This document shows positions 1 through 39,282 of a stretch of DNA of 39,917 nucleotides, in pieces. Made by a program: the position numbers and the translations under genes. The DNA lies in assembly GCA_036939975.1 (NCBI GenBank), contig JALLPB010000317.1, positions 1-39,917 of the forward strand, in the 5' to 3' direction. Numbering within the stretch: the stretch's first letter is position 1; each line of letters starts with the position of its first letter. This DNA comes from Cyclostephanos tholiformis. Lineage: Eukaryota; Bacillariophyta; Thalassiosirophyceae; Thalassiosirales; Thalassiosiraceae. The notes under the pieces were generated by a model. That model did not search any database. It was not told where the DNA came from and saw only the letters and a list, made by a program, of their open reading frames with translations.

Positions 1-1580
1 CTCCCAAGCTAGATCGTAGAGTGTTGACGACCTTGTGCATCTATAATTTGCTGTGTGCAGGTAATGGTAGACTTTCCCCTTTTTGATTCTGTGTAGGTCG
101 TTGGTCGAGCTATTATAATACCATATCCATCTCCTGTGGGTTGGAGCTATCCATGCTCCCAGAGGGATGTGAAGTTTGTCCCCGGTAGCTGTGTAGTCAT
201 GCCAGAAGTTGAACCAGACTTCCCAGTCTTTCTTTGCAGGACATTCTTGTGGAAACTTGTACTTGGACCTTGCTACCTTACTACCAGGATCAAACACAAA
301 CTGCTCCATATATTTGCCATTTGCTGTCATCATGTCTGATAGGAATATTATTTCTAATGCCCCTTGGCATCTGCTCAAACTCCTTATCATTTTTCTGTCG
401 AGGACCTTCCCAACAATCAGTTCCATTACTACCTGGTCTCTTTCTCTGGGGCTTGGAATTGATGGACATTCCATGTGCAGATGGATGTTGAAGTGGTGTA
501 GTGATCTCCACATCATATTAACCCAAGAAAGTGGGGCTAGGTGCCCCCATTAGTCATAGTCCAGTGTAATGGGGTTGTGTGGCGTGCCTAGTTGCAGTTG
601 CAAGTACCTCAAGGATGCCTCAAGTTTTCTGCTAAGGTTTGTGGACGTGTGGTAGTGTTGTAGCAGCAAATTGATTCGGCATATTAACTGCTCTGTTGCA
701 ATGCTTAGTAAGCCGAACCCTCCGGAGGTTGTATGTAGCGTTCAAAGACCTTTTGTTACGGTTTGGGCCCCCAAAATGTTGAGCGTCCTGTAGTCAGTCT
801 TGGAGTTCATGCTCTTTGCCTCTTCTATGTCATTTGTCATCGTTCCTAGCCCGTACCTGAGGCCCGGCCAGAGTTGTAGCCTGTAAGCTATCCATGCCAT
901 GTGGTAGGGGAGGTGTCCGTTTGTGATCCTGTCTGTCCAGATTGAGGCTTTTTGTTGGATGTATTTGAGGTGCTCTTTGTTCCCTCCGGAGGGTACATCG
1001 TGAATTCCTAGTGTTTTCTTGGATGCTGTCACCTCCTCTTGGTTTATCTGGCTCTTGGTGCCGTCTGGATTTGTAACAAATAATTGCCGTGGCGTCATTT
1101 CTGCATAGGACCATTCCCCATCTTCTTTGCACGTATAGTCGAGCATGTACCAGAAACATTTTTTGGGTTTAAGGGCGCCGCCCTTTGCATTGAGTAGAGT
1201 GCTCCATTGGGTTAGTTCTAGTTGTGTCTGTAGCCATAGCTCTCCTGGGTCGCGGAGATCGTCTTTCCACATATAGAGGTCAGTGTCGTCCACAAACAGT
1301 GTTCCCATAGAGTGGATCAATTCCTGCGTAATCGGGTCTACCACGGTAGCTCCGAGTTCTAGTTGTTTGAACACGTTTACTAAAACTGCGCTAAGTTGGA
1401 TCCATGAAGGTGGTGCAGCCCTGTTCCCCTGCCCCAATCCCATCATATACAGTCGAATCCCTGCCCCTCCGAAAAATGTTCTGGACTCCCCAAACCCTGT
1501 CCGCTGAAAGAATTTCATTGTCTGTAGACATATCAGTGTCAAGACTATTGCTGGTTGTCAAGGCTAGCCACACCAACGAC
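1..1580 (-). pseudogene. LINE reverse transcriptase, C-terminal half and downstream domain
   Basis: One frame can be followed from about 1580 down to base 1, broken by a TGA at 742-744 and a TAA at 550-552. The upper part has the RT active site FVDDTD (about 1270-1290), preceded by GLGQGNRAAPPSW, the usual QG..AAP-type motif. Below the TGA the frame continues through a conserved-looking region with FLSDMMTANGKY and the DWEVWFNFWHDYTATGDKL segment. This shows that the element does not end at the first stop. A frameshift between about 1535 and 1580 separates it from the N-terminal RT half. The protein would copy element RNA at the nicked target. Confidence 0.8.
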
Positions 1581-2350
1581 ATTATTATATGATTCACTTT
1601 GTCATAGCAGTTGGCTGCATCAGCCAAGACCACTGTCATTGGTTGTCTGGCTTGCCGAGATAGATCTGCCATTAGAGTCTTGTCGAATTTTGCGTCTTCT
1701 GCCGTACTTCCCTTCTGACTGAAAAGTTCCTCTGGAATATATCTGCAATCTGTTAGCGTTTGCATCACCTGCCTACCGAAAATGAGCTGGTTGTAGCAGT
1801 TGACATCCGCCTTGTACAGTTGTATGGCACGGAGCTTTTCTACAAGGCATACTCCTGCAATCTTCTCCAGCATCACTTGCAGCCCAATACTCCAGCTTTC
1901 CGGTGGGATACCGCTGCGTGCAATTACTGTCAGCTGCAGAGCTAGAACATTTGTGCTTTGTGTGTCCTGGATCGCGGCTATGTATTGCCCATAGTGCACT
2001 CCCGACATTGACGAGGACGTGAATTTGTTGACTTTCTTCCAAAATTGCTTGAATTCCTTTGGCGTTATTATTATTGAATTGTTATCACCATTGACAATCT
2101 TCATTCCCAACTTGCCCATCTCCCTTAGGATCATTGCTGTTGCTGGGTCTAGATCAGTTGGAATGTTGTAGGTTCCTGTTATTATAGCCTTTGCCAGAGC
2201 CTTGTCCGAGAGGTACCGGAGCCTCTCTCCTAGGAGCGAGTTCATGATGGGTGCGCTGTGTGCTTGCAAAAACCTTACTTCGCATTCTTGTTGGATTGCT
2301 TGCTTGACATCCTCCTGGACTGTGTATTCTTCTATCTCTCCTTCGACCAC
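1535..2350 (-). pseudogene. LINE reverse transcriptase, N-terminal half
   Basis: An open stretch encodes the fingers/palm start of the RT. It includes a KLRAIQLYKADVNCYNQLIFG segment and the palm motif VVLADAANCYDKVNH, whose D-A-A-N-C-Y-D box holds the first catalytic Asp. The open frame runs on to 1391, but real RT sequence moves to the neighbouring frame somewhere in 1535-1580, so a 1-nt indel lies there. A single TAG at 2354-2356 separates it from the endonuclease part in the same frame, indicating that endonuclease and RT once formed one polyprotein. Confidence 0.8.
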
Positions 2351-2353
2351 TCT

Positions 2354-3739
2354 CTAAATTTTCAGTACGGTGGGACTGTGGGGATCTTTGACCGTCCTCT
2401 TTATCAGGTGCCACATTCTTTTGCGCTCTTCTCGATGGAGTTTGAGCTTGATGGCTTTAGCTCGTTTGTTCTGTCTCTTTGATTGAGCGTCCAGAAGACA
2501 GTCCCTCAGGTGTACCTTGTGTAGTCCTTTTGCTTGTTGTCTCAGGTCTGCCTTCCTTATTCTGCAGAACTGAAGTCCGTCCTCTAACTCCTCCATCATC
2601 AGCTCCACTGGTCTTTCAATATGAGTCCGCTTTGCAAATCTTACAATGTTTCTGGCATTTGACGCCTTCCCTTCCTTCAATCTTATGAGTTGGAGATATG
2701 CGTGGATCCTGTTATACCAAATTTGTATTGTGGGGCTGAAATCGCTCTCTGGTTGTAGGATTTTTTGGCAGTTTTCTGCGTGAACTCTAATTTCTGTCAT
2801 TTGTTTGTACAGCTTTATGATCATGGCCCTCAACCAGTTTGGGGATGGGTAGCTGCAGTAACTTGTCATCTTGTCAACTGCGTTTAATCTTTTGATGATT
2901 CGGTGGATCTCAAATTGCTTCCCCACTATCTTGTTGTATCTGACAACCGACTGTAGTTGTGATGTTAATAGTCGCCTGCTTACAGGCCTGCAGATCTTGG
3001 GCCTATATTCTCCAAAAAATGACCGTGTCAAAATATCGATGATGAATGACCTATGATCTCCTGGACTCTCTGCAAATGTAAGCATCCCCAGGTTGACAAT
3101 CTCGATCTCTGAAGATTTGTATCCTCCATCAATTGGAGACGTTCTTGATATGTGCGTGTAGGGGGGGATCGGACCCCAGCATTTATGCGTGAATTCTTCT
3201 AGGCCCGTTTGTTCTTTTTGTAGTTGCTGGTAGAACTTGCTGGTTAGGGGGTGATCATTTACGTCCATCACAAGTACAATCCATTCACCGGATTTTATCC
3301 ATTCCTTGATTTGTTTGGCTAGGTCTTTATCAAAAAGTTCCACTGGGGAGCAGTTGATGCCATGCGCCTGAATGTAGCACAGTTGTTGTTGATAAATTGT
3401 ATGCAATCCTTTGGTCTTTGAGCGACACGTTCTGTACACTACTACTACTCTTGACACGTGGTTTGGATTGCAGAAAAATTACCACGAACACCAATGGCCG
3501 AGTCCTCTTGGATCTACCGAAGCCTTGCGTGGGTGTTGGAGAAATTTGCTTCAACATATCATTCCCCTACCTCCTGGTTGGTGTCTTGAGGAGACTGCGT
3601 CCTGCTTGTATGTGTTGTGTGCTGTTATCGATCTTGTCTCCCTTTCTTCCTGGTGAAGCCATGATGCTAAGTTGGCTGACGAGTTCACTTTAGACCAATT
3701 GAAGTTTAGTTCCATACACGCCACCAGGTTGACGTCGTA
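2354..3739 (-). pseudogene. LINE endonuclease (EEP/APE-like) and linker
   Basis: The frame holds the start of the endonuclease (CMELNFNWSKVNSSANL near 3650-3720). After in-frame TGA (3551-3553) and TAA (3479-3481) it holds the body of the domain, with VLVMDVNDHP and the C-terminal SPGDHRSFIID motif. That GDHR motif matches the SDH/GDH box with the catalytic His of the exonuclease-endonuclease-phosphatase fold. A basic linker of about 200 residues follows and leads into the RT. The enzyme would nick genomic DNA to prime reverse transcription. All interruptions are point changes in one frame, so the decay looks fairly young. Confidence 0.75.
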
Positions 3740-6487
3740 CTTTTGAATAAGTTTCTCCATGGTTGACATTTTTATCTCTCTGACCTCTTTACCCGTGTAT
3801 CCTCTCATTTGACGTACCATGATTCTCATTGTCCCGTCCTCTCTCTCAATTGGTATCTGCCCCAACTGGTCCACGTTACATCTCTCCAGTTTGGCTTCCA
3901 TTGTTTTCATCTCCCTTTCTACCACGTCCTTGTTGAGATCTCCTTCTTTTCTCTGATCGTGCCAATCTTTTACTAACCCCTTTATCTCTGCATCAGTCAG
4001 TTTCCCCTGTTTTTGTTGAGATGACCGTCTGTCCATAATTTGTTTAATTTCTAAGTAGTTTAATGTTGCTAGCGCATTTCTGTTGCTATCCCTATTGTGA
4101 CCTACTGGGGTTTCTAATTTTTCCCCACACATTGATTGCCCTAATGGCTGCCCTGATTGTTGAGTGGTCCTGAGTATAGCTAGGTCCTCTCTGCGAGTGG
4201 TTGCTTGCTTTGCAGCGCCCTGCTGTCTGGAAGCGCTGGTGGTACTGTTTGCTGCAGTTGATGACGTTCCCCCTCCATCGGCTGTAGCTCCCATGGAGGG
4301 TCGTCTTCTGTTATCCAGTGGACGCCATGCTCGAGGATTGCGCTCCCTCCTTGTCCCGTCCTGCCGGGGTGGCAGGCTCAACGGCGGCCTCATCTGTGGG
4401 GCTTGCCTTGTGGGCTCCGGGTAGTGTTCCCTGAGTCTTACTGGCTTCTTCATTTGTTCCCTCATCCTGGCTGGGTGCCTCGTCGTGGGAGTTGGGTGTG
4501 CTGATTTTGTCAAGTGCCTCCTGGATTGCTTCTATAAACTCAATTTGTTCCCCATGTTCTTTGCCGGCTTCCTCGATTAGTAGCGCCCTGAGATTCGCGA
4601 ATTCCGCTAAATCTGGCTGGTAAACCCGCTTCTTCTGCCTTTAGATTGTCCTTGAGCAAGTCTAGAAAGATAATCATGCTACCCACTGATGGTCCAGCTG
4701 TGTTCCATAGAAACTCCTTGAAAGTGTTGGGCTCTTCGAATGTGTTAGTATAGCTGGCGTCGAACACCCCTGACTCTACTTCCAATGCGGAATCATAGTC
4801 TTGCCCTAGAGAATGGTCCTCTGGGTGAATGCTGAGGTCGTTCTCTAAGTAGTCTTTGCCTTCCTCATCGTCGGAATCAGGATCTACTTCAAGGGCCATA
4901 TCTGGTAGATCTATGCATTGGATAACGTAGGATGTGTCCATTTTGCTATGCTCTTCTTTGTCCATGGCGTCGTTGAACTCATCGTCGTCCTCTTCCTTGT
5001 CCTCTTCCATATTTGTTCCCCCGGACACCGACAACAAGTTCAGCTATTCCGTGGCTTTGCTCATGTCATTCATGGGTTGAGCTTCGTACTTGAGCGCGTG
5101 TACATGTTAGTGTCCCCCTAACTTATCTTTCTGTCCGGTTTTGTTACTCTTGTTCTTACTGTGTTCTCTTGTTAGCATCTGCATCCCTTCAATCTTGATT
5201 GCTGATGTCTTAGTGTCACTTCCCTCGTAGTCAGAGCCTTTGTCCTCATCTGTCTCTACCTCATCCGATCCATTGGATGTAACCTTGGATGTGCCCACGC
5301 TGTAGACGGACTTTGCCAGTGTTTTCTGTGAGGCGACAGAAGGTGTGTCATTCGCATTCTTCGAGTGAATAGTAATAACAGACATGCTAGAGGAGAAGTT
5401 GTGCGCCTCCACTGCTCCCTCTTTTGCTTCCCCGAACATTATTTCGGAGGCATCATGGCCCCTACCGGTGATGGCTGTCCTGCGTTCCCTTTCTGACAGC
5501 CCTAGAGTTGTGTCATAGATTCCCTCTTCCTCTACTGCATTGATAATGTCGTCTGAGTTGGACTCGTCCAGTACCGCATACCCCTTGTTGGGCATGTATT
5601 TCGATTTGGTTATCTTCTGCTGTTGATCCAGCATAAAACAGTGATGTACCATCCGATTTACGTCCTCTGCTAGGCATCCTCTTTGTCTAAGCCACCAGTA
5701 TACCTGTACTCCTGGGCATCCCACAAAATTTATTTACGTGATCGTTGATTGACTCCACCACGCTCAAAAAATATCCTGTGTACTTTCTGGTTGATCCTTT
5801 GGCTAGGCATATCCATACCTTTCTGCTTTTTACCTCCATCATGCGGAAAACTTCTCTTAATGATGTCTGAGTTGCTGCCCTTGGTGATCCATCTGCCCCC
5901 GGAGTAAGACGGAGCAAGAACTTAGAATCCGCGTCAATTACTCCGTTGATTGACGCCGCCCCTAGGCTAAGCTGGACCAACCCATGTGTCTAAACCATCT
6001 GGATATAGCGTACTTTTTCGCTTTGTTGGCTATTGTTCTCCGGTATTTCAACTGTAAAGGCCATGTTTCCCGCAGTGGTTGGCCCACAACTTGCGTTGCT
6101 TTGCTATGTGACAGAGTTTACTGATTCGATTGTAGTCAGGTTGATGGACCTGCAATACATGTGCAAGCCGCGCATTGTTACCCCCTTGCTTCTTTTTTTC
6201 CCCTCTGCGTCCTCCCAGGGCATCCCCGGTGGAAACTCCTTAGTGACCGCAAAGTTGATCCATCTGGATCGTTGGTTATGGGACAGCTTATAATCGCTGT
6301 CTGTCTGCAGCAGAGTGCCTTCTAAAGTTGATAGTACTTTGTCCAGAGTATCTTTGATCACGTCGTCCTCTATTGAGTTAGGAACCCCCAACAATATTAA
6401 CTTCAACACCGTGTCGACCTCTTGACATTTCTTGTAAAATAGTGAGCATCCCATCGTACGTAGATCCCCTGCCGCGTTGTTCAAACT
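3740..6487 (-). pseudogene. LINE ORF1 (gag-like) region, frameshifted
   Basis: Open segments at 6104-6487, 5687-5980, 5107-5724, 4540-5037 and the upstream part of 3551-4513 form a broken first ORF. Segments 6104-6487 and 5687-5980 share one frame. A shift near 5700 puts 5107-5724 and 4540-5037 in another, and a further shift near 4630 leads into the endonuclease frame. Recognisable blocks are LSERERRTAITGRGHDASE and GEAKEGAVEAHNFSS, which I associate with ORF1 proteins of diatom LINEs. A very acidic stretch lies near 4800-5010. I see no zinc knuckle. The function is presumably RNA binding and particle formation, inferred from position only. Confidence 0.65.
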
Positions 6488-7707
6488 TTGCATTGGTGGA
6501 CTTGTGGTGGGACTAGCTGGTACTTGCTGTTGTTTGCGGTGATGGCGGTTAAGAATGCCTTGCTGGCCTCCTTGTCCAGGATGTGTACATCCGGGGTGGC
6601 ATGGTGCTGAGCCAACCGGTTGTAAATGTCCATGTAAGCCTGGATGCGGTGGGTGTCGTGCTTTGATTTGAATGCTTGCATGAGGATGGCATTAGACTCA
6701 CTGTGCAGGACTACCAGGTTTCCACTGCGCGAACGTGGCGAGAACCGTCCCGTGTCATTGGTGAAGATGTGATTGATTGGTACCGTGATGATCTCAACGT
6801 TGGAGGTGCTAGGTACGGCTGTGGGTCTGCCTGTGGGCTGTCGAGCAATTGCCTGGGTGGAGCGAATATGCTGGCATGGTTGCACCATATGCCCCATGTG
6901 TGTTTCATTGGCGTCCGGGCAGTATTTGCTGGCTAGCATCATGGTGAGGCCGGTCTATGAGCTGTACTCCCCATGCTTCATTGCTTGGATCCAAGTTTGT
7001 TTGACCAGGTATCCCACTGTCATGTGGTAGTACGCAATGAGGGCAGGTGTGGATGTCAGATCAAGAGTTCGGACTGCCTTTGGCATGACGTTGGTCCATG
7101 TTTGTGTTCGTGGGCCACCATTTGGCGGCGTTACTCCAATGGGCCGGTTGTGTGGCGTCTCCTCAGGCTGGACAATGCTCAACTGCGGCGACGGTGGTAC
7201 ACTGGTCTCTGTGTTAACATTGGGAGGGATGGTGATGTTTCTCGGGGCGTCATTGTCGGGCGGGATGAGGGTTGGTGGGGCTTGGTGAGGTGCAATGTTG
7301 ACTCACCATAGGTGTGCACCAGGTTGTTCCCGATCTCCGCACATTATTTTGTGGCCATGTTTGTCATGGATTTTGAGCACATGTTTGTCCATATACATGG
7401 TGAGGCTGTTTGTAAAGCCCGGGATGATGTGCCTGGTGCGTGCTTGCAGTGTAGGGATATGCGGTAACAAAAGGACCACTGCTCCCGAAGAGCTTTTTAG
7501 TTCTCCGGTTGCTGTGCAGATGGTGAGTTTGGGTGCCATGCGGTCGATGTTGAGTAGTGGGGCGGCCATCGTGAAGTAATGGTTGCTCGCTCCCATGTCT
7601 ACAATCACAGTGCAATGTGTCAGGGTTGTTGTGCTGGGTGGGCAACAAGACAAGGAAGCTGTGGCTAAATGACATAGAACTGGAGTTGTTATGTTATTTG
7701 TTACCAC
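6488..7707 (-). pseudogene. Copia copy A protease and integrase remnant
   Basis: The protease segment (7303-7707) contains IVDMGASNHYF where copia aspartic proteases have D-T/S-G. Here the middle residue is Met, so the protease should be inactive. The frame then breaks. The integrase part carries the zinc-binding-like region ending YCPDANETHMGHM and the core start TNDTGRF, with the second Asp kept (HILDKEAS). Compared with copy B, the DDTGRF Asp is now Asn-Asp and several residues are missing near the SGN-LVV site. The gene is cut after VHQC by the LINE. Confidence 0.8.
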
Positions 7708-7731
7708 CTTTTCATTGTCTGGCCCAATCAG

Positions 7732-9009
7732 TCAAGTATCCCAACCTTTGTTGGCAATGCTCCCATTCATTGTGTTGGCTCTTGTTGCCGTATCCTTATG
7801 CCCCTCCACCTTCCTGGTGCACATGGTGCTGTTGTGACCCTTTTTAAGGCGGTATCCATACGTCCAACAAAAAACTCCGATCTCATGGGTTTTGTTGCGT
7901 CCTGTGCCGCTGCGTGGTTGTTGGTTTTGCCCAGGGAGTGCATTGGTTGCGTTGGTGTTTCCGGAGGCCAGCAGGATGTTATAGACAGCTGTTAGTGCCC
8001 TGACACTTGCGGTGAGTGAGGTGACACTTGCAGTGAGGCTTGCATTGTTTTTGATGAGTTGCATCAAGGTTGTTCTTTCATTCATTGCAGCCGCTGCCAG
8101 GTTGTCTAGGTATCCATCCAACCATGCAAGCGTTTCTGATGAGATTATATCGTCGGCCGTTGTGCTGTCATTGGCTGTGGTTACTGTATTGGCGGCTCCC
8201 ATAGTTGGGGTTGCTTTTCCTGCCGTTAATAACTGATGCTTACAAGCAAGATGGGCCGCTTTGTAATGCTTTTTCCAATTGGTCCATGTCTTGTTGGCAC
8301 ATGGCCTGGCTTCCCATTCGTCAGTTGGGCATGGGAAGTGACCCGATGCAAGCACTGACATTGACACAATTGCCAGGAGCTGGTCATTGGACATGGGTAG
8401 GTTTGCTCATGCCAGTTTGCGCTGTGCCTCCTCGAGTTTGTCGATATACTCGGGGATGCCTTCCACATCCATGTAGTATCCCAACATTTCTGTAGGAAGG
8501 GATACCAGTTCACTCGGGTGGAGACCTCCGCAGTTGGCATCCAGGTGTGCCATGAGTTCTGCGGCCGTGATGTTGGTGTAGAATGACCTCGGGTGACAAA
8601 GGTTGCGGTACCAAAGTTTGTTGACCACATCGTGGATGAACTTTGCAACTGCCCATTTGGCAGCTTCATACACCACAAAATCCTTTACGAGCATGGCATG
8701 ATTAGCCTCCTTGCGGGCTCGGACAACTGCAGTAGCGTTGTCAGGGATGTCCGGATATGTTGGCAGTCATGCTGGGATTGGGAAGGCTTCACCCCACATG
8801 GCGGAGTATGTTGCTGTGGGTTCGATGAGTCCAATGAGGTTGTGGTTGAATTCGCTGGGGCCCGTGCCTTGGTCATAGGGGATATCAAGCAACAACGGGT
8901 AGAGAACTTCGTGCATGGCTGTGAGATCATCATCGGTCGGCTGTCCGATGATGGCTGGAAAGGAGGTGGCAGCTGTTGCGAAGAGCATCGTGATCTCTTC
9001 TGGCATCAT
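7732..9009 (-). pseudogene. Copia copy A gag-like region
   Basis: Three segments make up the gag region. They are 8767-9009 (starting MMPEEITMLF), 8407-8766 (NITAAELMAHLDANCGG and the following stretch) and 7732-8394. The last ends in a zinc-knuckle-like FCWTYGYRLKKGHNSTMC. The segments lie in one frame and are separated by TGA codons at 8767-8769 and 8407-8409. Both TGAs occur at the same places in copy B. In the knuckle, copy A has Tyr where copy B has His, so metal binding is probably lost. Gag would package the element RNA. Confidence 0.75.
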
Positions 9010-9144
9010 AGTTGCGTGACATGGTGTTTGGGTGTTGGACGATGCTGCGGCTTAGCGGCTTCAAGCGGCAATGCATTTCACCTGATGTCTGGTGTAGTAG
9101 CTGGTGGCGACTTTTCCGGTGGTGTGTCAATAGTTGGCTGAGCA

Positions 9145-9335
9145 GCTATTGATGCGACAAATCATAGTAGCTATGAAGAAGAGCACCAATGAGATGATAA
9201 CATCTAGTTACTAGATTAATGAGCCTAGTGCTCAAACTACTCTAGATATGGGATGACTCCAGCACCGAGTGGCTGGACAGTTGGAGAAGGATGCCAACGG
9301 TCAAGACTAGTCTGGCTGTTGCATGCCTTGCTACA
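9145..9335 (-). repeat. Shared LTR: 3' LTR of copia B and 5' LTR of copia A
   Basis: The minus strand begins TGTAGCAAGGCATGCAACAG at 9335. That is exactly where similarity to 14764 and below starts, and where the pol C-terminus of copy B (stop near 9365) ends. TG at the start is the expected LTR end. The inner boundary cannot be fixed, because gag of a copia copy follows both LTRs. I place it near 9145 from position alone. Confidence 0.6.
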
Positions 9336-9365
9336 CACCGCTGCAGACACTTCGTGTGTGTTCAT

Positions 9366-10195
9366 CCTGCGTGGGTTGCTCTACGGGCAATGTGGTAGGA
9401 GGGCGGATGATGCTTTGTGTGATAGTCCGCCATGTTTGTGGATCCTTTATCCCAGTAGAATCGAAATTGGCGCTGTGCCTCGTGGCAGCGGAGCCAATGT
9501 AATCGCATCCAAATCATTTTGATTCAACGTTGGATGATGGTATCCTGGACAAATCCTGTTGCAGTGGAATGATTGGTTTGGATGGGCAACGGGGGTTGTT
9601 TCCAGCCCATTTCTTCGAGTGCATTCCGTAGTGGGATCATTTCGCATGCTGTGTGGTAGAGGGCGCCTAGTTCAGCCTTGGCAGCAGAAGCCATGTCATA
9701 TTTAAGGATTTGCAAAAGACTGAGGATGGGTCCATTGAGACGCAGGATGGGGTCATCTTCTGAAAGGAAGATGTGTGCGCCGGCGTGGCTGCGTCCCTTT
9801 GATTCTGTGAGGTAACTGGCATCCAAATGTGCAGCCAGGACCATGTTGCTTGCCCGATAGATGATGCCATCATTAGGGTATGTGGCAATGTAGTCCAGAA
9901 GTTGGTGCACTGCCTTTTCTGTGTTCTTGGTGGCTTGAGCTTGCTGAGAACTGATGGTGCTTAAGGTGGCGAGGAGTTTATTGTCAACAGCACGTGCATA
10001 GTATAGGCGCGATCCGACAATGCCTTGAATCCGCTTGACACCTGCGGCATCAAGCGGTGCGCTAATGTTGTTTTCTGGGACAAGCTGTTCTTTTGCGCCG
10101 TAGACAATCTCACGGTGTGCGTGTGGAGAATGATGTGGTTTGTTGGGCTTGGGGTGACTGTATTTTAGGAGGAGGGTGTTGATGTAATTGTGCAT
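9366..10195 (-). pseudogene. Copia copy B RNase H and pol C-terminus
   Basis: The connection and RNase H segment (9524-10195) starts inside copia-style VKRIQGIVGSRLYYARAVD. It contains LAAHLDASYLTE (first RNase H Asp) and SAAKAELGALYHTACE (catalytic Glu). After an apparent stop at 9524, the typical C-terminus appears in the neighbouring frame: FRFYWDKGSTNMADYHTKHH, ending near 9365. That gives one more indel near 9520. The end lies only about 30 bp from the LTR start, normal spacing for copia. Confidence 0.8.
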
Positions 10196-10318
10196 CGAGA
10201 GGTGACAGGTGCATTTGGCATAATCCCATTTGAGATCTATGCCGGCAAATTTTGAGCCGCTCCAATCAGTGGTAACTTTATAGTTCTGTTGGAGCGCAAG
10301 GAGAAGGTGTTCTGCATG

Positions 10319-11165
10319 TCATTTGCCAACATATTTGATGCCAAAGTCATCCACAATGAGTACAAATGTAATCGGGCGCCATTTGTGATGCCACAAGCCT
10401 GGGGTTGTTAGGCATTGGTAATAGCCATGCTCTGCCAACTGTTCCGTAAGCAGGTCATGTGCCAGTTTGCCAGCTTGCTTAAGGCTGTAGACTCCCTTGG
10501 TAATTTCAAAATAAACCCAACCATTGTGCGCATACTTTGTAAGGTTGTACTCATTGATGAATTTTTGTGGTATGTCAGCAAGTTTGATTCGTACGTATTC
10601 TGGCTGATCCAATGGCGTGCCAAGGTAGAAATTGGAGATATCAAAGCATGCAAAGTGGGCTTGTTTGGTGGAAAGCATGTTGTTAATGACAAGCTTAATG
10701 AGCTTGAGGGATCCTGTTTTAGTTCCTGTATCACCTGGGTAGCAAATGCAGTTTCCCCCAATGCTGCTCACACACCACACAAGTGTAAGTGACGTTGGTC
10801 CGTCGTTCGAGTGGGATGTCATGGTAGTAGATGGGTCGAAAGGTGTTTGTGCCTTGCACCCATTGCTTGGTGGGATCATCATTGTTGGTACCCACCCCCT
10901 GGCATAATCCTCCCAATTCATTGGCATAGGAGGCATCCCAGGTGTCATTGTAGTCTGGATGCTTCCGCAATTGTCTGTGTTTCAGTTCTTGTCCTGTTTT
11001 TATATCAATGACTGGGGTGGTGACGTGTAAGATAGGTATGTTGCTGTGCTCTTTCTCATTCTCGGCAGTGTCGTATTCCGCAGTTTCATCTTCAGCTAGC
11101 ATGGCAATTTTTTTTTCGAGTGAGCTCGTGCACGTGTGGCCACTGGTTCCAGTGGGGTTGTGCAC
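10319..11165 (-). pseudogene. Copia copy B reverse transcriptase
   Basis: The N-terminal part is in one frame (10731-11165, with DIKTGQELKHRQLRKHPDY and DTWDASYANELGGLCQG). The palm is in another (10319-10761), with FACFDISNFYLGTPL holding the first catalytic Asp, then the copia hallmark GVYSLKQAGKLAHDLL and the active-site LIVDDFGIKYVG. A +1/-2 shift near 10760-10790 separates them. The catalytic Asp residues look intact. This domain occurs only once in the window, because copy A is cut before it. Confidence 0.85.
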
Positions 11166-11405
11166 GGTGGGATCTTGGCATTGGTGCTCCTGTGTTTTGT
11201 GTTACTGTTGTCCATCTGATGTCCATGTGCGACATTGGTGGTGCCCCCGGCATCCCTGGAGCTGGTGGCATGGTCGTTTGCTGTTCTGGCATGGCGATGG
11301 CTGGCACCCCTTGACGTGAGGGCATCTGCGCTGCATGGTTGTAGGAGTGGAGTATGGCTTTTAGTGTGATGATTGCCATGAGTTGTTCGTCCGCAGACAT
11401 CGGTG

Positions 11406-12380
11406 TCAAGCGTGCGAGCGTGTGCTGGATGGTTTGCATGGCATGCAGCAATTTGTCCTCCAAGGAGAGTGTGGGCTCCTGCAAGTAGTGATGCCAAATT
11501 TGATGTCGTCACTGATGGTGACTGCACCGGTGAGTTTGTTGAAGACTCTGTAACAGCAATAGTGTTGCAGCGCTGGTCCAATGTAGAAGCCTTCATGGCA
11601 GCAATTCTCCCACAATTTTTGCACCTCTGCTTTCAAATGAATGAGGACACGACATCCCGCAGGTCCCCTGGTTGTCCCTTTGAAGTCGAATGGTCCAAAG
11701 AGGCTGTGCCAAGCCGAGAGCGATGGGTTGTTGCTTGGCCGCAATAAGTTAAGCGTGAGCTCTGCTTGCGGCAGCAATAAGTCCCATCTATCCTTAGGAC
11801 AGGTTGGTGCTGTCCCCGCCAGGATGGTTAGGAAATGGTCCTTGAAGGTTTGGATTGCTCTCTCTGCACGGTTGCATCGGTGGACGTGTGGTGGAACTAG
11901 CTGGTACTTGCTGTTTGCGGTGATGGCGCTTAAGAATGCCTTGCTGGCCTCATTGTTCAGGATGTGTACATCCGAGGTGGCATGGTGCTGAGCCAACCGG
12001 TTGTAAATGTCCGTGTAAGCCTGGATGCAGTGGGTGTTGTGCTTTGATTTGAATGCCTGCACGAGGATGGCATTAGACTCACTGTGCAAGGCTACCATGA
12101 TGTACTGGTTTCCACTGCGCAAACGTGGCAAGAACCGTCCCGTGTCATCAGTGAAAATGTGATTGATTGGTACCGTGATGATCTTGATGTTGGGGGTGCT
12201 AGGTAGGGCTGTGGGTCTGCCTGTGGGCTGTCGAGCGATCGCCTGGGTGGAGCGAATATGTTGGCATGGTTGCGCCATATGCCCCATGTGTGTTTCTTCG
12301 GCGTCCGGGCAGTATTTGCTGGCTAGCATCAGGGTGAGGCCAGTCCACGAGCTGTATGCCCCACGCTTGATTGCTTGGAT
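11406..12380 (-). pseudogene. Copia copy B integrase
   Basis: The sequence runs through YCPDAEETHMGHM, the core motif TDDTGRF with the first catalytic Asp, HILNNEASKAF where D-N-E-A-S is expected, and NRAERAIQTF with the catalytic Glu. A GR-rich C-terminal part with GPFDFKGTT and FYIGPALQHYCCYRVF follows, similar to the DUF-like tail after copia integrases in diatoms. Asp-to-Asn at the second core position should abolish strand transfer. Copy A has Asp at that site. It is followed by a Pro/Met-rich linker (11092-11484, overlapping frame). Confidence 0.8.
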
Positions 12381-13130
12381 TCAAGTTTGTTTGACCGGGT
12401 ATCCCGCTGTCGTGTGGTAGTATGCAATGAGGGCGGATGTGGATGGCAGATTGAGAGTTCGGACTGCCTTTGGCGTGATGTTGGTCCGCATTTGTGTTCG
12501 TGGGCCACCGTTTGGCAGCGTTACTCCAATGGGCCGGTTGTGTGGTGCCTCCTCAGGCTGGACAATGCTTGACTGTGGCGGTGGTGGTACACTGGTCTCT
12601 GTGTTAATGTTGGGAGGGATGGTGACATTTCTCGGGGCATCATTTTCAGGCGGGATGAGGGTTGGTGGGGCTTGATGCGGTGCAATGTTGACTAGCCATA
12701 GGCGCACACCAGATTGTTCCCGATCTCCACGCATTATTTCGTGGCCATGTTTGTCATGGATTTTGAGCATGTGTTTGTCCATATACACAGTGCAGTTGGC
12801 ATTGCACAGCTTTCCTAGGCTTATGAGGTTGTTTGTAAAGCCCAGGATGATGTGCCTGGTGCGTGCTTGCAGTGTAGGGATATGTGGTAACAAAAGGACC
12901 GCTGCTCCCAAAGAGCTTTTTAGTTCTCCAGTTGCCATGGGGATGGTGAGTTTGGGTGCTGTGCGGTTGATGTTGAGTAGTGGGGCAGCCATTGTGAAGT
13001 AATGGTTGCTCACTCCTGTGTCAACAATCGCAGTGCAATGTGACAGGGTTGTTGTGCTGGTAGGGCTACAGGACAAGGAAGCCGTGGCTAAACGACATAC
13101 AATTGGAGTTGTTAAGTCATTTGTTACCAC
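12381..13130 (-). pseudogene. Copia copy B protease and integrase zinc-binding region
   Basis: The aspartic protease motif is IVDTGVSNHYF (about 13000-13030), so the D-T-G triad is intact, unlike copy A. The frame continues into the start of integrase (SALIAYYHTTAGYPVKQT) and stops at TGA 12381-12383. Copy A has TGG (Trp) there, so this is a G-to-A nonsense change private to B. The integrase core continues below in the same frame. The protease would cut the gag-pol polyprotein. Confidence 0.8.
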
Positions 13131-13355
13131 CTTTTCATTGTCCAGCCCAACCAGTCAAGTATCCCAACCTTTGTTGGCAATGCTCATGCTCCCATTCATT
13201 GTGCTGGCCCGTGTCACCGTATCCTTATGCCCCTCTGCCTTCTTGGTGCACGTGGTGCTGTTGTGACCCTTTTTAAGGCGGTATCCATGCGTCCAACAAT
13301 AACCTCCGATCTCATTGGTTTTGTTGCATCCTGTGCCACTGCGTGGTTGTTGGTA

Positions 13356-14503
13356 TTACCCAGTGAGTGCATTGGTTGCGTTGGTGTTTCCAGAGGCCAG
13401 GATGTTGTAGGCAGCCATTAGTGCCATAACACTTGTGGTAAGTGAGGCGACACTCAAAGTGGGGCTTGCATTGTTTTTGATGAGTTGTGTCAATGTTGTT
13501 CTTTCATTTGTTGCAGCCACTGCCAGGTTGTCTAGGTATCCATCCAACCGTGCAAGCGTTTCCAATGAGATTATATTGTCGGCCGTTGTGCTGTCATTGG
13601 CGGTGGTTACTGCATTGGCAGCTCCCATAGTTGGGGTCGCTTTTCCTGCCGCTAATAACTGATGCTTGCAAGCGAGATGGGCCGCTTTGTAATGCTTTTT
13701 CCAATGGTCCATGTCTTGTCGGCACTTGGCCTGGCTTTCCATTCATTAGTCGGGTGTGGGAAGTGACCCGATGCAAGCACTGACGTTGACGCACTGGCCA
13801 GGAGCTGGTCGTTGGACATGGGTAGGTTTGCTCATGCCAGTTTGTGCTGTGCCTCCTCAAGTTTGTCAATATACTCGGGGATGCCTTCCACATCCATGTA
13901 GTATCCCAACATATCTGTAGGAAGGGATACCAGTTTTCTCGGGTGGAGACCTCCGCAGTTGGCGTCCAGGTGTGCCATGAGTTCTGCAGCCATGACGTTG
14001 GTGTAAAACAACCTCGGGTGATGAAGGTTGCAGTACCAAAGTTTGTTGACCGTGTCGCAGATGAACTTTGCAACTGCCCATTTGGCAGCTTCATATGCTG
14101 CAAAATCCTTTACAAGGATGGCATGATTAGCCTCCTTGCGGGCTCGGACGACTGCAGTAGCATTGTCAGGGATGTTTGGATATGTTGGCGGTCATGCTGG
14201 GATTGGGAAGGCTTCACCCCACGTGGTGGAGTACATTGCTGTAGGTTCGATGAGTCCAATGAGGTTGTGGTTGAATTCGCCGGGGCCCGTGCCTTGGTCA
14301 TAGGGGATATCAAACAACAATGGGTAGAGAACTTCGCACATGGTTGTGAGATCATCATCTGTCAGCTGTCCGACGATGGCTGGGAAGGAGGCGGCAGCTG
14401 TTGCGAAGAGCATCGTGATCTCTTCTGGCATCATAGTTGCGGATGTGACACAGTGTTTGGGTATTGGACGATGCTGCGGTTTTGCGGCTTCGTGCGGCAA
14501 CAC
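13356..14503 (-). pseudogene. Copia copy B gag-like region
   Basis: The segments at 14192-14503, 13835-14191 and 13356-13831 correspond one to one to the gag region of copy A. TGAs at 14192-14194 and 13832-13834 sit at exactly the same codons (GCA TGA) as in copy A. A further shift near 13740 is specific to B. Downstream, at about 13285-13330, B keeps an intact knuckle-like YCWTHGYRLKKGHN motif. The likely role is RNA packaging. Confidence 0.75.
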
Positions 14504-14569
14504 GTTTCACCTGATGTCCGGTGTAGTAGCTGGTGGCGACTTTACCGGTGGTGTGTCAATAGTTGGCTG

Positions 14570-14764
14570 AGTGGCTATTGATGCGACAAATCGTAGTAGC
14601 TATGAAGAAGAGCACCAAAGAGGTGATAACATCTAGCTACTAGATTAATGAGCCTAGTGCTCAAACTACTCCAGATATGGGATGGCTCCAGCACCAAGTG
14701 GCTGGACAGTCGGAGAAGGATGACAACGGTCAAGACTAGTGTGGCTGTTGCATGCCTTGCTACA
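14570..14764 (-). repeat. 5' LTR of copia B
   Basis: Similarity with the LTR at 9145-9335 ends sharply at 14764/14765. The outer sequence here (GGGGTGCAAAG) differs from the pol end found outside the other copy. The minus strand starts with TG. The inner boundary is approximate. The two LTRs differ at scattered positions such as CTA/CTC and CGT/CAT, so the insertion is not recent. Confidence 0.6.
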
Positions 14765-16502: not shown

Positions 16503-19697
<3,195 letters not shown>

Positions 19698-20799
19698 AAC
19701 AACTGGTATAATGCATATTAAGTCTCATAAGGTAACTGCTACTCATGCGCACAGGATATTTCTTTTACTAAGAAAAATATCATTTGCACAATACTACCTA
19801 CAAAAATAATCATTGTCACTTCTAATCTTTGAGGGATCTTCCTATTGATTTCTTGTATTCCATACATGTTTTTTCAGTTGATGCTTTCCCGGTTTATGGG
19901 ATTGAAGTTGATCCCTGAAAGTTGTCATTTGATTGTGCCTTGTCCTCACTAGAGGTGTCACAATTGTCATCTGTGTTGGCCGATTCTGAATATTGTGAAC
20001 CTGATGACAACTTTAGACATCTCTAATTGTATTGCACATTTTTTCCACAACACATCAGCATTGCGGTACAATTGTACCATGAAATTGATCACCAGAATGG
20101 TATGCCCTCCACTCTTCTTCAGTCTTTTCACCTCATGCTGTACCTGAATTCCGACATTTTTTTAATCTTTCGTGAAGCATAAGAAACATGGTATCTGCAG
20201 GTCGATACTGTACAAATCATGCGGATGTGGAGGATTGGGTCAAATATGATGCCAAACACAAAAATTAGAGCAAATGCAAACATGATGATTGCACATATTC
20301 TGGTACTTATTTAGAATACACCCCACATGCCCCCGGGAGGCTCTTTGAAAGTGTTGCATGCCCCAGCACAATGGTTAGGGATCTGACATGCATCTAAAAC
20401 CAAAATCTACAACTTAGAAAGAGGTAAGTTCAGTAGAGGTCCCCTGGGGGCATTCTAGTGCAATCTAAGCATATGACATTTGCTATGACTGAGAGGGTGG
20501 ACACTATGACAAGCCCCAAATTTGCCCCGAGGCTGCTTGGGCATTTTTGGGGGGATTCTTAGCACATTCTTGGGCAAAAATCCATTTTTTGCCCCAGAAA
20601 TGCCCCTTTAGCCCTCTATAAAAGGACTGGTACAATTATTCCTTGGCCCTCTCCACAATTGCAGAAGGGTGTTGTGGTGGTTTTCTCACCTGATGGAAGT
20701 AGAGATTCATACTATTCCTCTGTTGATTAATTAGCTCATCTAAACTACCAAATCCACATGTAAAGAAGAGAGGGGGGGGGGGGGGGGGGGATTTAAAAC

Positions 20800-20810
20800 N
20801 NNNNNNNNNN
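20800..20810. other. Assembly gap (Ns) beside a poly-G run
   Basis: Eleven unresolved bases follow a run of about 19 G and a short A-rich piece. Another G run follows at 20820. The local order and length are unreliable. Confidence 0.95.
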
Positions 20811-20992
20811 ATACTTGAAGGGGGGGAAATTTAAGACCACAAAACCAAAACTTGGGGGGTTTGGAGCCAGAGCATTGTCACACTGATATGCTAAGATCCC
20901 CCCGAGAGCGTCCTGGGGAAAAAGTTTAAGCCCTCTCTAGTAGCATCCCGCCAGTTTCAAAAATTATTTTGGTGGGAGTAATTTTGCTCCTA

Positions 20993-21041
20993 ACTTTTGG
21001 CGGGAACAGCCGGGTCATAAAACTTTCTGGCGGGAACAGCC
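20993..21041 (+). repeat. Short tandem repeat, GGCGGGAACAGCC core
   Basis: ACTTTTGGCGGGAACAGCC (20993-21011) recurs as ACTTTCTGGCGGGAACAGCC (21022-21041), a 29-nt period. Weaker relatives with TTTTGGTGGG lie at about 20966-20976 and 21071-21082. Confidence 0.75.
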
Positions 21042-21837
21042 AGAGTTTTGCCAAATCTCATTGTGCGACAACTTTTGGTGGGTGCCAGGGATTTAAAAAA
21101 TCAAAAACCTGAAACTTTTTAAAATAATCCAGTTCCAGAACAATGAACTAATTTTTGAACTCTTCCGCAGACAGACCACAGCCACAAACAACACCCACCC
21201 AGCACATTCCGTAAGCTTACAACAAAGTTGTTATCATTGCCATTCTAAGCCCACTCCCCTACTGGGTAAAGTCTAAGTCTGCAAATGTGGAGTTGCCATC
21301 CCTATTGAATTATATGCCAGGATCAGGAACTTGCCTTCTTGTGCCAACTTCTGACTTCAGACTCTTTGGGCACTTGATTGTAATTTTTAACTAGCACAAA
21401 AAGGGCTGCAAAAAGCTCGTCGTACGTCATTGATGCAAAGCACATCGCAAAAATAGGAAAATACCATGCAAAAGCTGAGGTTCCAGCGCGTTCAACGTGC
21501 TATCAAATTCTGCGAGTGGACAATAATTTGCTAAGACTATATTTCTACATAGCTACAATAAAAAGTGGGCCGTCAGAACCACCCTTAGTGGTTAAGCTGT
21601 TAACCATCAAGGTTTCTTCATTTGCAACTGAAAAATGATTCAACTTATTTTGAACCTGTGCTTTGTGCCTTAGAGGCTAAGGACTAAGTAGCAAAGATAA
21701 TCTCATAATATGGCTAATCATGCTTGCTCATAGCTACTATCATTCTCATGAGAGCATCATGGTAAATGCAAAAAGGAGAGTACCATACTAGCTTATGATG
21801 CACAATAGCCTCTTGTATTAGTGGCGAACTAGTTATA

Positions 21838-21871
21838 AAGGATTTTGCTCGGAGCACGGAGATCTCGCTAT
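21838..21871 (+). repeat. 34-bp direct repeat, copy 1
   Basis: The unit AAGGATTTTGCTCGGAGCAC plus 14 further bases recurs at 21958-21991 with one visible difference (GATCTC against GTTCTC). The period is exactly 120 bp. Confidence 0.85.
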
Positions 21872-21957
21872 AATTGATTCCAAAAAGAGGGAAGACAAAA
21901 ACAAAAAATATAACGAATACAAATTTGATGGCTGCACGAGGTTTGGCTGTAGTTGCC

Positions 21958-21991
21958 AAGGATTTTGCTCGGAGCACGGAGTTCTCGCTAT
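21958..21991 (+). repeat. 34-bp direct repeat, copy 2
   Basis: This is the second copy of the 34-mer at 21838-21871. The sequence between the copies is A-rich and otherwise unlike either flank. It reads through an open frame on both strands, but no gene is supported. Confidence 0.85.
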
Positions 21992-22139
21992 TTGACTCAT
22001 ATAAGAAAAAAATAGGAGGCCTCGATCCATATTTCATTGACGCGGTGGTTTATACAACTGGAGGCGTGACGTGGATTCGCTGTGTGGGGGGGGAAATGAT
22101 GAAGTTCACCATAGCAATTAAATCATCACTATCACTATG

Positions 22140-23963
22140 TTATTTTTCGGCCCTCTCCAATGCAAGACGCATTGCATTCTTGCACCCATCATACAGACCA
22201 ATTTTGTTATTGTTACTGATTGACTTATTCATCACTTCGAGCAGATTTGTGGTCAAGAAAAGATTGACGTACTTTATAGCTGAAGCAACCTCCCGCACCT
22301 CCAAGGTTCCGTCTCCAAGTTCGGAAGCACGCAAAGCCGAGTAGGCCTCGTGGTCCCCGACACGACGAATCATCAGTTTAGGAATGGGATAGAAAGCCAA
22401 TTCACTTGGTTTGCACGCCAGTACATCGGCAATATTACATAGAATGTCAGTAGTTGCCACAGCAGTGAAATAGTCCTCGTAGGAGAACTGCAATTACGAA
22501 ATCAGAGAGGCAAACATAAGAGCTCGTGGACTGGCATGTGGCAAAAAATCGATGAGGTGGAATAGAAGACCTACCAAAGTGACATTTTTCGCAGGTTCTT
22601 CTGTCATCATTTTGTCTTTGAACGATTGCAATCCATTCATATCCACAACTGTGTCATAATCCATGCCATTTGACTCCAGAGCACTAACAAAAGCCTCCTT
22701 CATGTGTTCATGATCACCTGCATTCAAAAACAGCTGCACCACCCCTTCCTTCACCAATCCCGACAGAGCACCGACCATGTTAACGATGAACGATTTCTGA
22801 GCGCCCGCTCCACCAACAGGGATGATGATGCGAAGAGGCTTCCCCGCCTTCCTTCGCGTATTTCTACGGGCACATGCATCAGGGATTCCTTCAACCAGAT
22901 CACGCGGAATCCAATGGCCTGCCAATCCCAAATCTTTTTCTGGCACCCCCATCTTCAAGAAGGCATGGTAGTTCGACGGACCTTGAACTAAATTGAGTGC
23001 GCCAGGGACAACAACGAACCACTGAGCATGATTATCAATAACTAGGTTGATGACGTTAGTAAACCCAGCTGCGACCGCAGCACATGCCACCATGCAATGA
23101 GTGGCGATGATCGGGGAATTTTTGTCAAGCCCATTGATAAGGGGGAGCATGTGTTCCGCAAATTGATAGGTGACGCGGAGGGAGTTTTCGTCACCGGATT
23201 TCGTGAGGCTGCCCCAGAACTTTTCTGCGACGCCGCCAAGCTGAAGACGAACGACGACTTAGATACACAGAGGAACAAAGAAAAACACGAGCACGAAACA
23301 TCATACCTCAGAGGCCATCCTCGATCCTTTAGAATACATATGATCCATGTCTTTAATCATTTGAGCTTCTTCGGAGTCAATGCTTAGGAAGTCGTGGAAC
23401 CTGGTACAAGAACAGAGCAATTTCAGATGACACCTCTTGTGAATCTACCCTGCCTTCCAAAAGAATAAAGACGCTAAGTTCGTAGCTTACCAAGTTTCTC
23501 TGTCAATTTTTCCACCACCAACGAGACCAAACAATTTTCCACCACCACCGAGACCCCATGAGGTAGCGGCATATGCAATGCGATGATGACCAAATCCCAT
23601 TCGAATAGTTCCCACGACAACAGGTGGCTTCGTAGTGTCGCTCCACGATTGAGGGGCACTCTCGTTCCTCGATGTGACAATGAGCCCGGGCACCTTATCG
23701 CTGGGCGCAGTCTTGAGAGGATAACCTTCCTTCTTTGCGACGCGACTGCCGACATTAAACCAATTCAAAAGAACTGATTTGAAAGCGGATACTGGGTCGG
23801 GAGGTCCGCCTACAAAATCATCAACGCTTACGGCGTTGTTTTTGATCATGGCACTATACCATCCCGGCGCGAAAAGAAGAATGACACGCCAAATGAGGTA
23901 GAAACATGCGATTACGGCCGCCACGCCGATAAAGGCAACAGCAAACGGTGGTAGATCTGCCAT
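22140..23963 (-). CDS. Membrane-anchored Rossmann/GT-B-like protein of unknown function (4 exons)
   Basis: Exons on the minus strand are 23963-23491, 23400-23307, 23240-22575 and 22487-22140. All introns are GT-AG (90, 66 and 87 nt) with frame kept, giving 526 residues. I chose the ATG at 23963 because the frame further upstream opens only at a TTG. Residues 1-35 contain one membrane span (FAVAFIGVAAVIACFYLIW). A glycine-rich loop, RMGFGHHRIAYAATSWG, resembles the GGGHR loop of MGDG-synthase-type glycosyltransferases. A second glycine-rich motif, IIIPVGGAGAQKSF, lies in the expected place of a C-terminal Rossmann domain. This suggests a GT-B-like fold. Donor and acceptor are unknown. It is divergent from the TMEM223-like gene, 307 bp apart. 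Confidence 0.75.
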
Positions 23964-34416: not shown

Positions 34417-34554
34417 TCTTTGGTGGTGGGATGTTTGTCTCATGGCAGATGGGCTGTAAAGGAGTCCTCGCTAATACTACCAGAAAGAACAATTTTTTTA
34501 GAGATGTGGCGTTTTTTATCTAAGAGTTACTACTTTCATCATACAATTTTTTAG

Positions 34555-34789
34555 TTTTTCCTTTCGGGGGAAAAACTCATCGCGCCTTAAGCTGCAACAC
34601 AGAGCTTCTCTGTCAAGTTAGAAGGCAATAAAAGGCATAATGACTACGGCTACGCAAAGCTACTACAGAAGCCATGAGCAACACGCCATCGCATCAAAAT
34701 GGGGTGTTACTTCTTGGTTTATTTAGCTAAGTGGGCTCAGTAACGGGGTGTTACAGGACTCCCAAGTTCTGGCCTTATGCCAAATCTCG
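34555..34789 (+). repeat. 235-bp interspersed direct repeat, left copy
   Basis: The sequence from TTTTTCCTTTCGGGGG to CCAAATCTC is repeated at 39283-39517 in the same orientation. Well-kept blocks are GCGCCTTAAG, CAACACAGAGCTTCTCTGT, AGAAGGCAAT, CATCAAAATGGGG and TATGCCAAATCTC. It begins about 140 bp after the USP stop codon. The copies flank the YR retrotransposon, so they may be its terminal repeats, or unrelated copies of a short element. Confidence 0.7.
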
Positions 34790-35006
34790 CCATTGTAGCA
34801 TGCACGCTTCTTCCCGTTCCTCAACGGGGACAAGAGGACGTGCAGGAGGTGAACTTTAGCCTTCTAATGCGGACATCATTGCCATGTGTTGCGAGCATGC
34901 AAAAAATAAATATAAAAATATATATATATAAAGTATTGGGTTGGTAGGAAAGTTAGTAAGTTAGTAGTTATAGTTATGTATTAAAAGTACGAGCATGCAT
35001 GCACGC
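34790..35006. other. AT-rich spacer between left repeat and YR element
   Basis: This contains an AT run with TATATATATATA (about 34918-34931) and no coding signal. It could be the 3' untranslated part of the YR element, whose recombinase ends at 35007. Confidence 0.5.
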
Positions 35007-36180
35007 TTAAGCCTCAAACTCGTCACCATCAACATAGTGGCCCATGTCAGGGTCTATCGGGATGTCGTTTGGCAAGATATTTGTGTTGTGACCCAGGAAA
35101 AGGAGGGCAACTTTATTGGAGTCTGCTTTGAGGGCTTCCAGGTGTTGGTTTTGTATTTTTTCAGTGTCCCGGAGGTAAGATCAGTATGAATCTCCCTGCC
35201 AGCGGAGTCGCGACTTGATAAAATCTGGTGCTTTCCCGGCTTGGTCTAGGAGTACAACTGCCCATACCCGGCCTGAGTGAGAAGACCACTGTGAGGTCGG
35301 GATGTGTAAAAGCAGCCACGCTTTGAAGAGTGGATGCTATTTTTGCTGCAGTGAGATATTTCTTTTCGCCTGATGCACTGACATAGACCGCGAGAGGCTC
35401 AGAGGTATCGCTCTGATTTATTCTCATTGCTCGTTCAATTATTCGGAGCGCCGCATGCACGGGGCAAATGTCAGGGTGCTCACTGTCTGCAACTATTGTG
35501 ATCGTCTGCCCATTTCGCCTATTTTTTTGTATCCTGAACGTGATTACAAGGCGCATTACCAATGTTGGATCGCAATTTTTTCTTGGATTTATTGCTCTGT
35601 TATTCTTGTCTCAGAAGGCCCAATCAGAAGGGAGGAATGCTTTAATGACACGTTTGCCTGAAGGGTACTCGTGATAGTCGACTTTGGCTTGTGAAGTCTG
35701 TGCATACTCTGCCACCCGGAAGCCACATATTCGGACAAGGCAGAAGAAATCAAATATTGCACGGTCGAGTGAATCTTTTGTCAAGTTAGCCGCATTTGTT
35801 CCCATTTGTGCAAACATTGCATTCATAATCGGACTTCGTTGGTTGGCAACCCATTCTTCACTTTCAATTGCATTAATTATCTTGACGTTAATGTCTTGTT
35901 TATCCGCAAGATTGACGGGGGGATGAAAGCCTCGTAGCTGAAAAAGCTCGTTAATACTGGTAATATAACCTCGTATTGTTTTTGCCTTGCAAGCCGTGTC
36001 TGCAAGCAGGTTTTGCACAAAACATGCGATGATACGGCTATATCCTTTGTGGCTGCCGCAGGGATCAGGTATTTTCTTATCATTACACCATTTCAGGTAG
36101 ACAGCCTGCCTAAATCTCCCGGTGCCAATGCTCTTATCTGGTTTAATTCGGGACACTGTTTTGTCAACAGTATTTCCCAA
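35007..36180 (-). pseudogene. Tyrosine recombinase of the YR retrotransposon
   Basis: The N-terminal SAM-like region includes GRFRQAVYLKWCNDKKI and AKTIRGYITSINELF. The first catalytic Arg lies in LVRICGFRVAEYAQ. After a TGA at 35611-35613 the same frame continues (RIQKNRRNGQTITIV). An indel near 35285-35300 moves the rest to another frame, with SSHSGRVWAV (His and Arg of H-x-x-R) and RLRWQGDSY, whose Tyr (35184-35186) is the expected nucleophile. A TGA at 35181-35183 comes directly after it. The tail then reads SYLRDTEKIQNQHLEALKAD and ends at TAA 35007-35009. The tetrad is present but cannot be made as one protein. The enzyme would insert the circular cDNA. Confidence 0.85.
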
Positions 36181-38519: not shown

Positions 38520-38783
38520 AAACTATCCCTCCATAGATGTTCTACGTAGGAATAGTATGTTTTTTCTTGTTTTGGCACACAACNACCCTTAGATAACTCT
38601 TAGTTACCTCTCTGACGTCAATTGATATTAAGGCCGTAGAACCTAAACACCCTCACCAACGATTCCACCCGCCCAGCGCTGCTCTCCCGCCTCGTTGAAA
38701 GGTGAAAATAATTATTGAAGGCGCACATCATCATTTACTACCTCCGCCACCGCTGCCACCCGTGACGCCCACAAGTGATCACC
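38520..38783. other. Spacer upstream of YR pol, with one N
   Basis: One unresolved base lies at 38584. In the pol frame a TAG lies near 38541-38543, so pol does not extend further. No gag is visible. Confidence 0.5.
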
Positions 38784-39260: not shown

Positions 39261-39282
39261 AATGACTGATTGGAGACAAATG

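Follow-up and report, generated by a model that had tools for sequence, protein, structure and literature searches.

When two copies of one transposon read TG in the first and CA in the second, site after site, what process lies behind the difference? The question is raised by a 39,917-nucleotide stretch of Cyclostephanos tholiformis DNA (the window, part of contig C314), in which two neighbouring broken copies of one copia-type long terminal repeat (LTR) retrotransposon family, A and B, lie head to tail, both on the minus strand. Here, we compare these copies with each other and with further sequences from the same diatom genome (24.95 Mb searched, 1566 contigs), which also encodes a silicon-transporter match (687 bits) and light-harvesting genes. 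Judging from the sequences, the A/B pattern is very probably explained by independent deamination of 5-methylcytosine (5mC) at symmetric CpG sites in silenced, broken copia copies.

An earlier, sequence-only reading of this DNA had noted TG opposite CA. Its quoted example, TCCCATGTC at 7591-7599 (A, with CA) facing TCCTGTGTC at 13014-13022 (B, with TG), is found verbatim, as are AACATT/AATGTT and GATGTT/GACATT in the protease-integrase spacer (A 7210-7240, B 12600-12630), all read on the plus strand; its start for B, 11880, moves to 11872 in our alignment. The A/B alignment has 2841 columns, and 252 of them are mismatches, 209 transitions and 43 transversions. For 91 of the transitions the partner copy still has the CpG, and another 66 pair up as 33 TG/CA doublets. 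These make up 157 of the 209, and the remaining 52 are unconnected with CpG. The transition excess at CpG, whose absence would have told against the earlier reading, is large: the rate at CpG positions is 0.215 (91/423), compared with 0.014-0.046 in six other contexts when CpG-derived sites are set aside, and C-to-T change at CpG is 13.6 times as frequent as transitions are at C/G columns elsewhere (bootstrap 9.4-18.2). There is no clear excess of CHG over CHH between A and B (CTG 9/198 vs CTH 8/397, with CAG and CCG near CAH and CCH), and we make no claim of CHG methylation.

Among the 37 adjacent double transitions, TG faces CA in 33 and other kinds make up 4; CG opposite TA does not occur among them. 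Chance, or an artefact of alignment or assembly, has next to no likelihood as the source of this pattern. Tandem repeats are indeed difficult to assemble, but chance is excluded by a permutation in which transitions were redistributed among pyrimidine and purine columns (mean about 2.9 TG/CA doublets, maximum 10 in 5000 draws), and of the 14 other pair rows described below, 11 likewise have TG/CA as their most frequent double transition.

A site that reads TG in one copy and CA in the other can be reached via CG or via TA. Since single-step pairs between A and B number 91 via CG and 13 via TA, CG is the likely ancestor. Distant relatives bear on the same point: at least one of them has CG at 17 of the 25 covered TG/CA sites. 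At control sites, where the two copies have the same dinucleotide, TG or CA, the figure is 94 of 371 (Fisher p 2e-5). The other 8 of the 33 TG/CA sites are without coverage. The relatives are 15 of 25 matching loci, 65-71% identical in their main matches; two of them, L013 and L016, overlap, and some cells are counted twice.

How would such sites arise? We propose that selection on the coding frames of A and B relaxes while methylation persists on both strands of their CpGs. As 5mC deaminates spontaneously, it would then turn CpG into TG (top strand) or CA (bottom strand), separately in each copy, and opposite-strand events in the two copies would leave TG facing CA. Three elements of this proposal are ones we infer from the sequence: the modified base (5mC), methylation lasting over the lifetime of the copies, and the responsible enzyme. 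Symmetric CpG methylation followed by deamination would leave both strands decayed, TG and CA mixed at random, changes tied to the CpG context, and functional-looking genes spared. Both strands have decayed in A and B, with both kinds of decay in each copy (CG to TG 55, CG to CA 36 overall), and the order of TG and CA decays is random in either copy (runs z -0.85 for A and 0.61 for B).

We also examined 14 further copia pair rows, picked by hand as long or of high identity. Loci recur among them and the rows are not independent; two are both labelled L011/L016, and only the second enters the expected-count, codon-position, CpG observed/expected (o/e) and runs analyses. TG/CA doublets are present in 12 of the 14 rows. 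They are outnumbered by other double transitions in L034/L043, and are absent in L032/L035 and L050/L056, the two intact-frame pairs. Codon position 3 holds 140 of 180 mismatches in L032/L035 and 332 of 434 in L050/L056, so these two pairs evolved under selection; single decays fall on the third-position side in 83 of 95 cases in L050/L056. Between A and B the corresponding figure is 35/85, transitions at codon positions 1-3 number 58, 58 and 79, and codon-position bias is weak. Additionally, CpG o/e increases with open-frame length among 30 of 151 matches to the RVT_2 profile (rho 0.71, p 1e-5).

Under independent decay, the expected number of TG/CA doublets is xy/2c. Observed and expected numbers are near each other in six of the 13 other named pairs (11/10.4, 13/14.1, 13/10.5, 23/22.3, 10/9.4 and 6/5.6), these being L001/L008, L007/L012, L037/L041, L009/L012, L011/L016 and L030/L047.

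Are host genes equally affected? The sequence-only reading would have been undermined by an equal excess there, and it proposed introns for the comparison; we used genes instead and found no such excess. In three pairs among three light-harvesting complex (LHC) genes, with the reading frame taken as the one giving most third-position differences, third positions have changed at 18 of 342 CpG and 34 of 548 other sites (p 0.66), and none of 17 double transitions among the LHC genes is TG/CA. Two intact-looking histone H3 genes, L079 and L080, have a CpG o/e of 1.0-1.1, and 1 of 32 CpGs reads TG or CA. Third-position change in this pair is 3/44 at CpG and 17/137 elsewhere (frames here, as for the third-position rates of selected copia pairs and the histone pool, were set by script from short fragments and are in part doubtful). 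Functional-looking LHC and H3 genes thus show no CpG transition excess.

It could be argued that CpG is hypermutable throughout the genome, methylated or not, and that genes look spared only through selection on their CpGs. Consistent with this, L032/L035 and L050/L056 lack TG/CA even though their third-position CpG rates are 2.6 and 1.7 times the rest, and the host controls are all coding, probably codon-biased, with no neutral single-copy sequence among them. CpG retention in genes is partly owed to selection. At the third positions of the LHC genes, however, change at CpG equals that at the rest, and the H3 pair points the same way, so we regard genome-wide hypermutability as improbable.

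Transposons are not alone in bearing the scar, which decayed H3-like copies show too. In five H3-like copies besides L079 and L080, 44-68% of the covered L079 CpGs appear as TG or CA, compared with 7-20% of other C/G that show C-to-T. Four of the H3-like copies, L081, L082, L085 and L086 (contigs C488, C1336, C1201 and C345), have a CpG o/e of 0.17-0.32, and at many positions where intact-looking H3 has arginine they have H, C, Q or W, as expected from CGN decay. Those on C488, C345 and C1336 give matches of roughly 400 bases with 83-90% identity. These four may possibly be surplus or captured H3 genes. An in-frame stop is present in one of the five; the remaining copies are presumably dead as well. 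Because H3-like copies bear the scar while intact H3 is spared, the scar seems to depend on a sequence being silent or duplicated, and not on its being a transposon. The earlier suggestion that the pattern would record CpG methylation of transposons in this alga is supported, with the limit that the scar is not transposon-specific.

Several observations weigh against independent 5mC deamination, or complicate it. The 33 TG/CA doublets of A/B exceed the 18.1 expected under independence, perhaps a sign that some CpGs decay faster than others. The xy/2c expectation is too low for L010/L015 (8 observed vs 0.8 expected) and too high for L009/L015 (11 vs 25.2) and L034/L043 (5 vs 9.0); the intact-frame pairs show 0 where 4.2 and 6.3 are expected, and L007/L010 (11 vs 16.0) and L010/L012 (12 vs 8.1) deviate within about 1.5-fold. 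Third-position bias persists in four TG/CA-bearing pairs (L037/L041, L034/L043, L011/L016 and L030/L047), so the division into dead and selected copies is not clean and the history is mixed. Runs tests in some other pairs lie farther from zero than in A and B (z 2.25, -1.92 and -1.74). The histone pool (16 overlapping pairs) has a CpG excess, 107/257 vs 151/1676, which we ascribe to the decayed copies within it. None of the five in-frame stops of A faces CGA in B, and three of the five are common to B; TGA accounts for 51 of 68 stops among the RVT_2 matches listed (counted by hand), and we count CGA-to-TGA stops as weak support for decay. The rate of A/B decay also differs by 5′ base (p 0.01). 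By that base, the counts are ACG 30/93, TCG 22/92, GCG 20/101 and CCG 19/136.

A further point of this kind is that C-to-T on the sense strand is somewhat favoured in A/B decay (55/91, p 0.06). Cytidine-deaminase editing leaves C-to-T/G-to-A clusters in animal retroelements, and APOBEC-like editing of retrotransposon cDNA before integration would fit the slight strand bias. Each copy nevertheless carries both kinds of decay, the excess sits at CpG, and H3-like copies are affected as well; we consider cDNA editing extremely unlikely.

It is also worth considering an active mutator. Fungal repeat-induced point mutation (RIP) is a C-to-T decay of duplicated DNA with a CpA-to-TpA signature (high TpA/ApT) and strand-clustered mutation tracts. 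In a RIP-like process, an enzyme, perhaps diatom DNMT4 (a relative of fungal RID/DIM-2), would sense duplicated DNA and actively mutate CpGs in transposons and surplus genes. Decayed H3-like copies are affected along with transposons, some pairs fit independence poorly, and DNMT4, related to DIM2/RID, is reported, among 60 diatom species, in 23 centric and 8 pennate ones (PMC9998398). But TpA/ApT is 0.52 and 0.57, so there is no CpA-to-TpA signal; runs tests show no strand-clustered tracts in A and B; site-by-site decay fits the counts in several pairs; and the three related LHC genes are spared. A RIP-like process is thus a minor candidate. Somewhat less probable again is the specific proposal that centric diatoms have a duplicate-sensing CpG mutator, possibly acting via DNMT4, that strikes transposons together with surplus host genes such as H3. 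The statement that TG opposite CA is hard to explain except by deamination was slightly too strong, a CpG-directed repeat mutator being improbable rather than impossible, although deamination is the best-supported explanation.

CG methylation of transposons is already described for other diatoms. Diatom genomes are reported to contain CG-methylated transposon islands and to be otherwise unmethylated (PMC9998398). The same source reports 5mC in four species (Thalassiosira pseudonana, Cyclotella cryptica, Fragilariopsis cylindrus and Phaeodactylum tricornutum), and for three of these describes it as mostly at CG and lying over repeats; in P. tricornutum, copia-like elements are methylation targets, and DNMT5a mutants lose methylation and overexpress copia-type elements. 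Methylation in C. cryptica is described as predominantly CpG (PMC5124317), and methylation has been named as one possible cause of a GC-to-AT bias in P. tricornutum (PMC6604790).

The genome studied here has matches to the C5-methyltransferase profile PF00145 on C425 (202 bits, in a 628-aa frame) and on C446 (two exon-like pieces). A C5-methyltransferase of this genome is 78% identical, over 72% of the query, to a Stephanodiscus triporus protein and 68% identical (82% covered) to a Thalassiosira sp. protein. No DNMT5 could be recognised; the pieces on C446 match HaeIII/HhaI and, weakly, other DNMTs. The C446 gene may be interrupted or truncated. Just past its pieces, at 4824-6272 of locus L078, we see by eye copia-like reverse transcriptase (RT) and RNase H frames. 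For some DNMT families, RNA is regarded as the likely substrate (PMC12344493).

How are the two copies laid out? Copy A (6488..9335, minus strand), delimited by alignment and translation, is truncated in integrase at 6488, has five in-frame stops from 9051 on, and contains no RT. The part of B in common with A (11872..14764, minus strand; blastn and MAFFT against A) comprises the 5′ LTR, gag-like and protease-like regions and the start of integrase. The integrase frame of B runs on through 11872, followed by RT-like and RNase H-like regions and the 3′ LTR, giving a full-length element, LTR to LTR, at 9174..14764 (minus strand), placed by translation, a below-cut-off RVT_2 match and the collinearity of a third copy. 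Integrase lies upstream of the RT-like region, as in Ty1/copia, with both profile matches under cut-off: SH3_retrovirus in the open reading frame (ORF) 11406-12329 (21 bits, cut-off 27) and RVT_2 in ORF 10319-10948 (20.2 bits, cut-off 31.6), each in a decayed frame. The names gag-like, protease-like, integrase, RT-like and RNase H-like were given by eye from the translation, beside which stand these two Pfam matches.

The 5′ LTR of B (14603..14764, minus strand; LTR comparison) is 162 bp long with TG...CA ends, and LTRs of this kind recur at 9174-9335 and on C1465. The one at 9174..9335 (minus strand), identical to 14603-14764 at 153 of 162 positions, closes B as its 3′ LTR and opens A as its 5′ LTR. 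The third copy, C1465:142-1738, is collinear with window positions 9174-10769 at 92.4% identity, and its match begins at the LTR edge, which identifies 9174-9335 as the 3′ LTR of a B-type element. Because this middle LTR is common to A and B, B has no simple 3′ flank for a target-site duplication. Dating B from its LTRs proved uninformative: the two differ at nine positions, two of them CpG transitions, and each contains only two CpGs.

Head-to-tail copia neighbours recur in the genome, on C314, C570 and C691, and on C610, C1434, C711, C1110 and others. Among the RVT_2 matches listed, neighbours 4-10 kb apart lie on the same strand in 9 of 11 cases (p 0.07), counted by hand with second pieces of one RT on C1156, C1512, C940 and C1375 excluded. 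Recombination between LTRs and tandem insertion are possible origins of such arrangements.

CpG content varies across the window. CpG o/e is 0.57 in A, 0.58 in B and 0.56 in the left flank, 0.85-1.32 in seven gene-like ORF stretches and 0.41-0.81 in repeats, with 0.41 in the repeat-rich segment 19359-21873 and 0.68-0.81 in the repeat-bearing right end. Positions 19400-22450 form a repeat-dense spacer with 79 genome matches (self included), where CpG o/e falls to 0.14 in one 600-base bin. On the minus strand of 1-6200 (CpG o/e 0.56), ORFs resemble by eye a non-LTR element with endonuclease and RT; Pfam searches of five of these ORFs returned no endonuclease or RT, only Mab-21 just under cut-off and a weak DUF930. 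At the right end, 34420-39917 holds a further repeat family, 70% identical to C1430 over 3.5 kb, with direct repeats at 34556-34788 and 39284-39516.

What, then, does the locus tell us? The A/B scar is a sound instance of a process already known in diatoms, and of use because it can be read out of sequence alone. In a fragmented diatom genome, methylation that silent DNA has carried over long times could be recognised without bisulfite data, and doublet counting could extend the 5mC survey beyond the four diatoms of PMC9998398 to environmental genomes. TG/CA doublets, absent from the two intact-frame pairs tested, may mark relaxed copies, and the decayed H3-like copies suggest that the mark itself goes with silence or duplication. 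Among titles and the beginnings of abstracts, in open-licence PMC full text, we found no report of such a decay scar in a diatom.

Finally, the scar can be set beside known systems. In vertebrates and plants, methylated repeats undergo CpG decay from CG to TG or CA on both strands, leaving CpG depleted and TpG/CpA in surplus. The change from CG to TG/CA on both strands and the CpG depletion with TpG/CpA surplus are the same here, where repeats and decayed gene copies are affected and the few functional-looking genes tested are not. With fungal RIP, which is mentioned in PMC9998398, the scar has C-to-T decay of duplicated DNA in common; unlike RIP, it involves CpG only, with low TpA/ApT, no strand-clustered tracts in A or B, and three related LHC genes spared. 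With the methylated islands described for diatoms (PMC9998398), it shares both the CG context and the targets, transposons including copia-like elements. The difference is that methylation is here read from mutations rather than from bisulfite data, and that H3-like copies are scarred as well.

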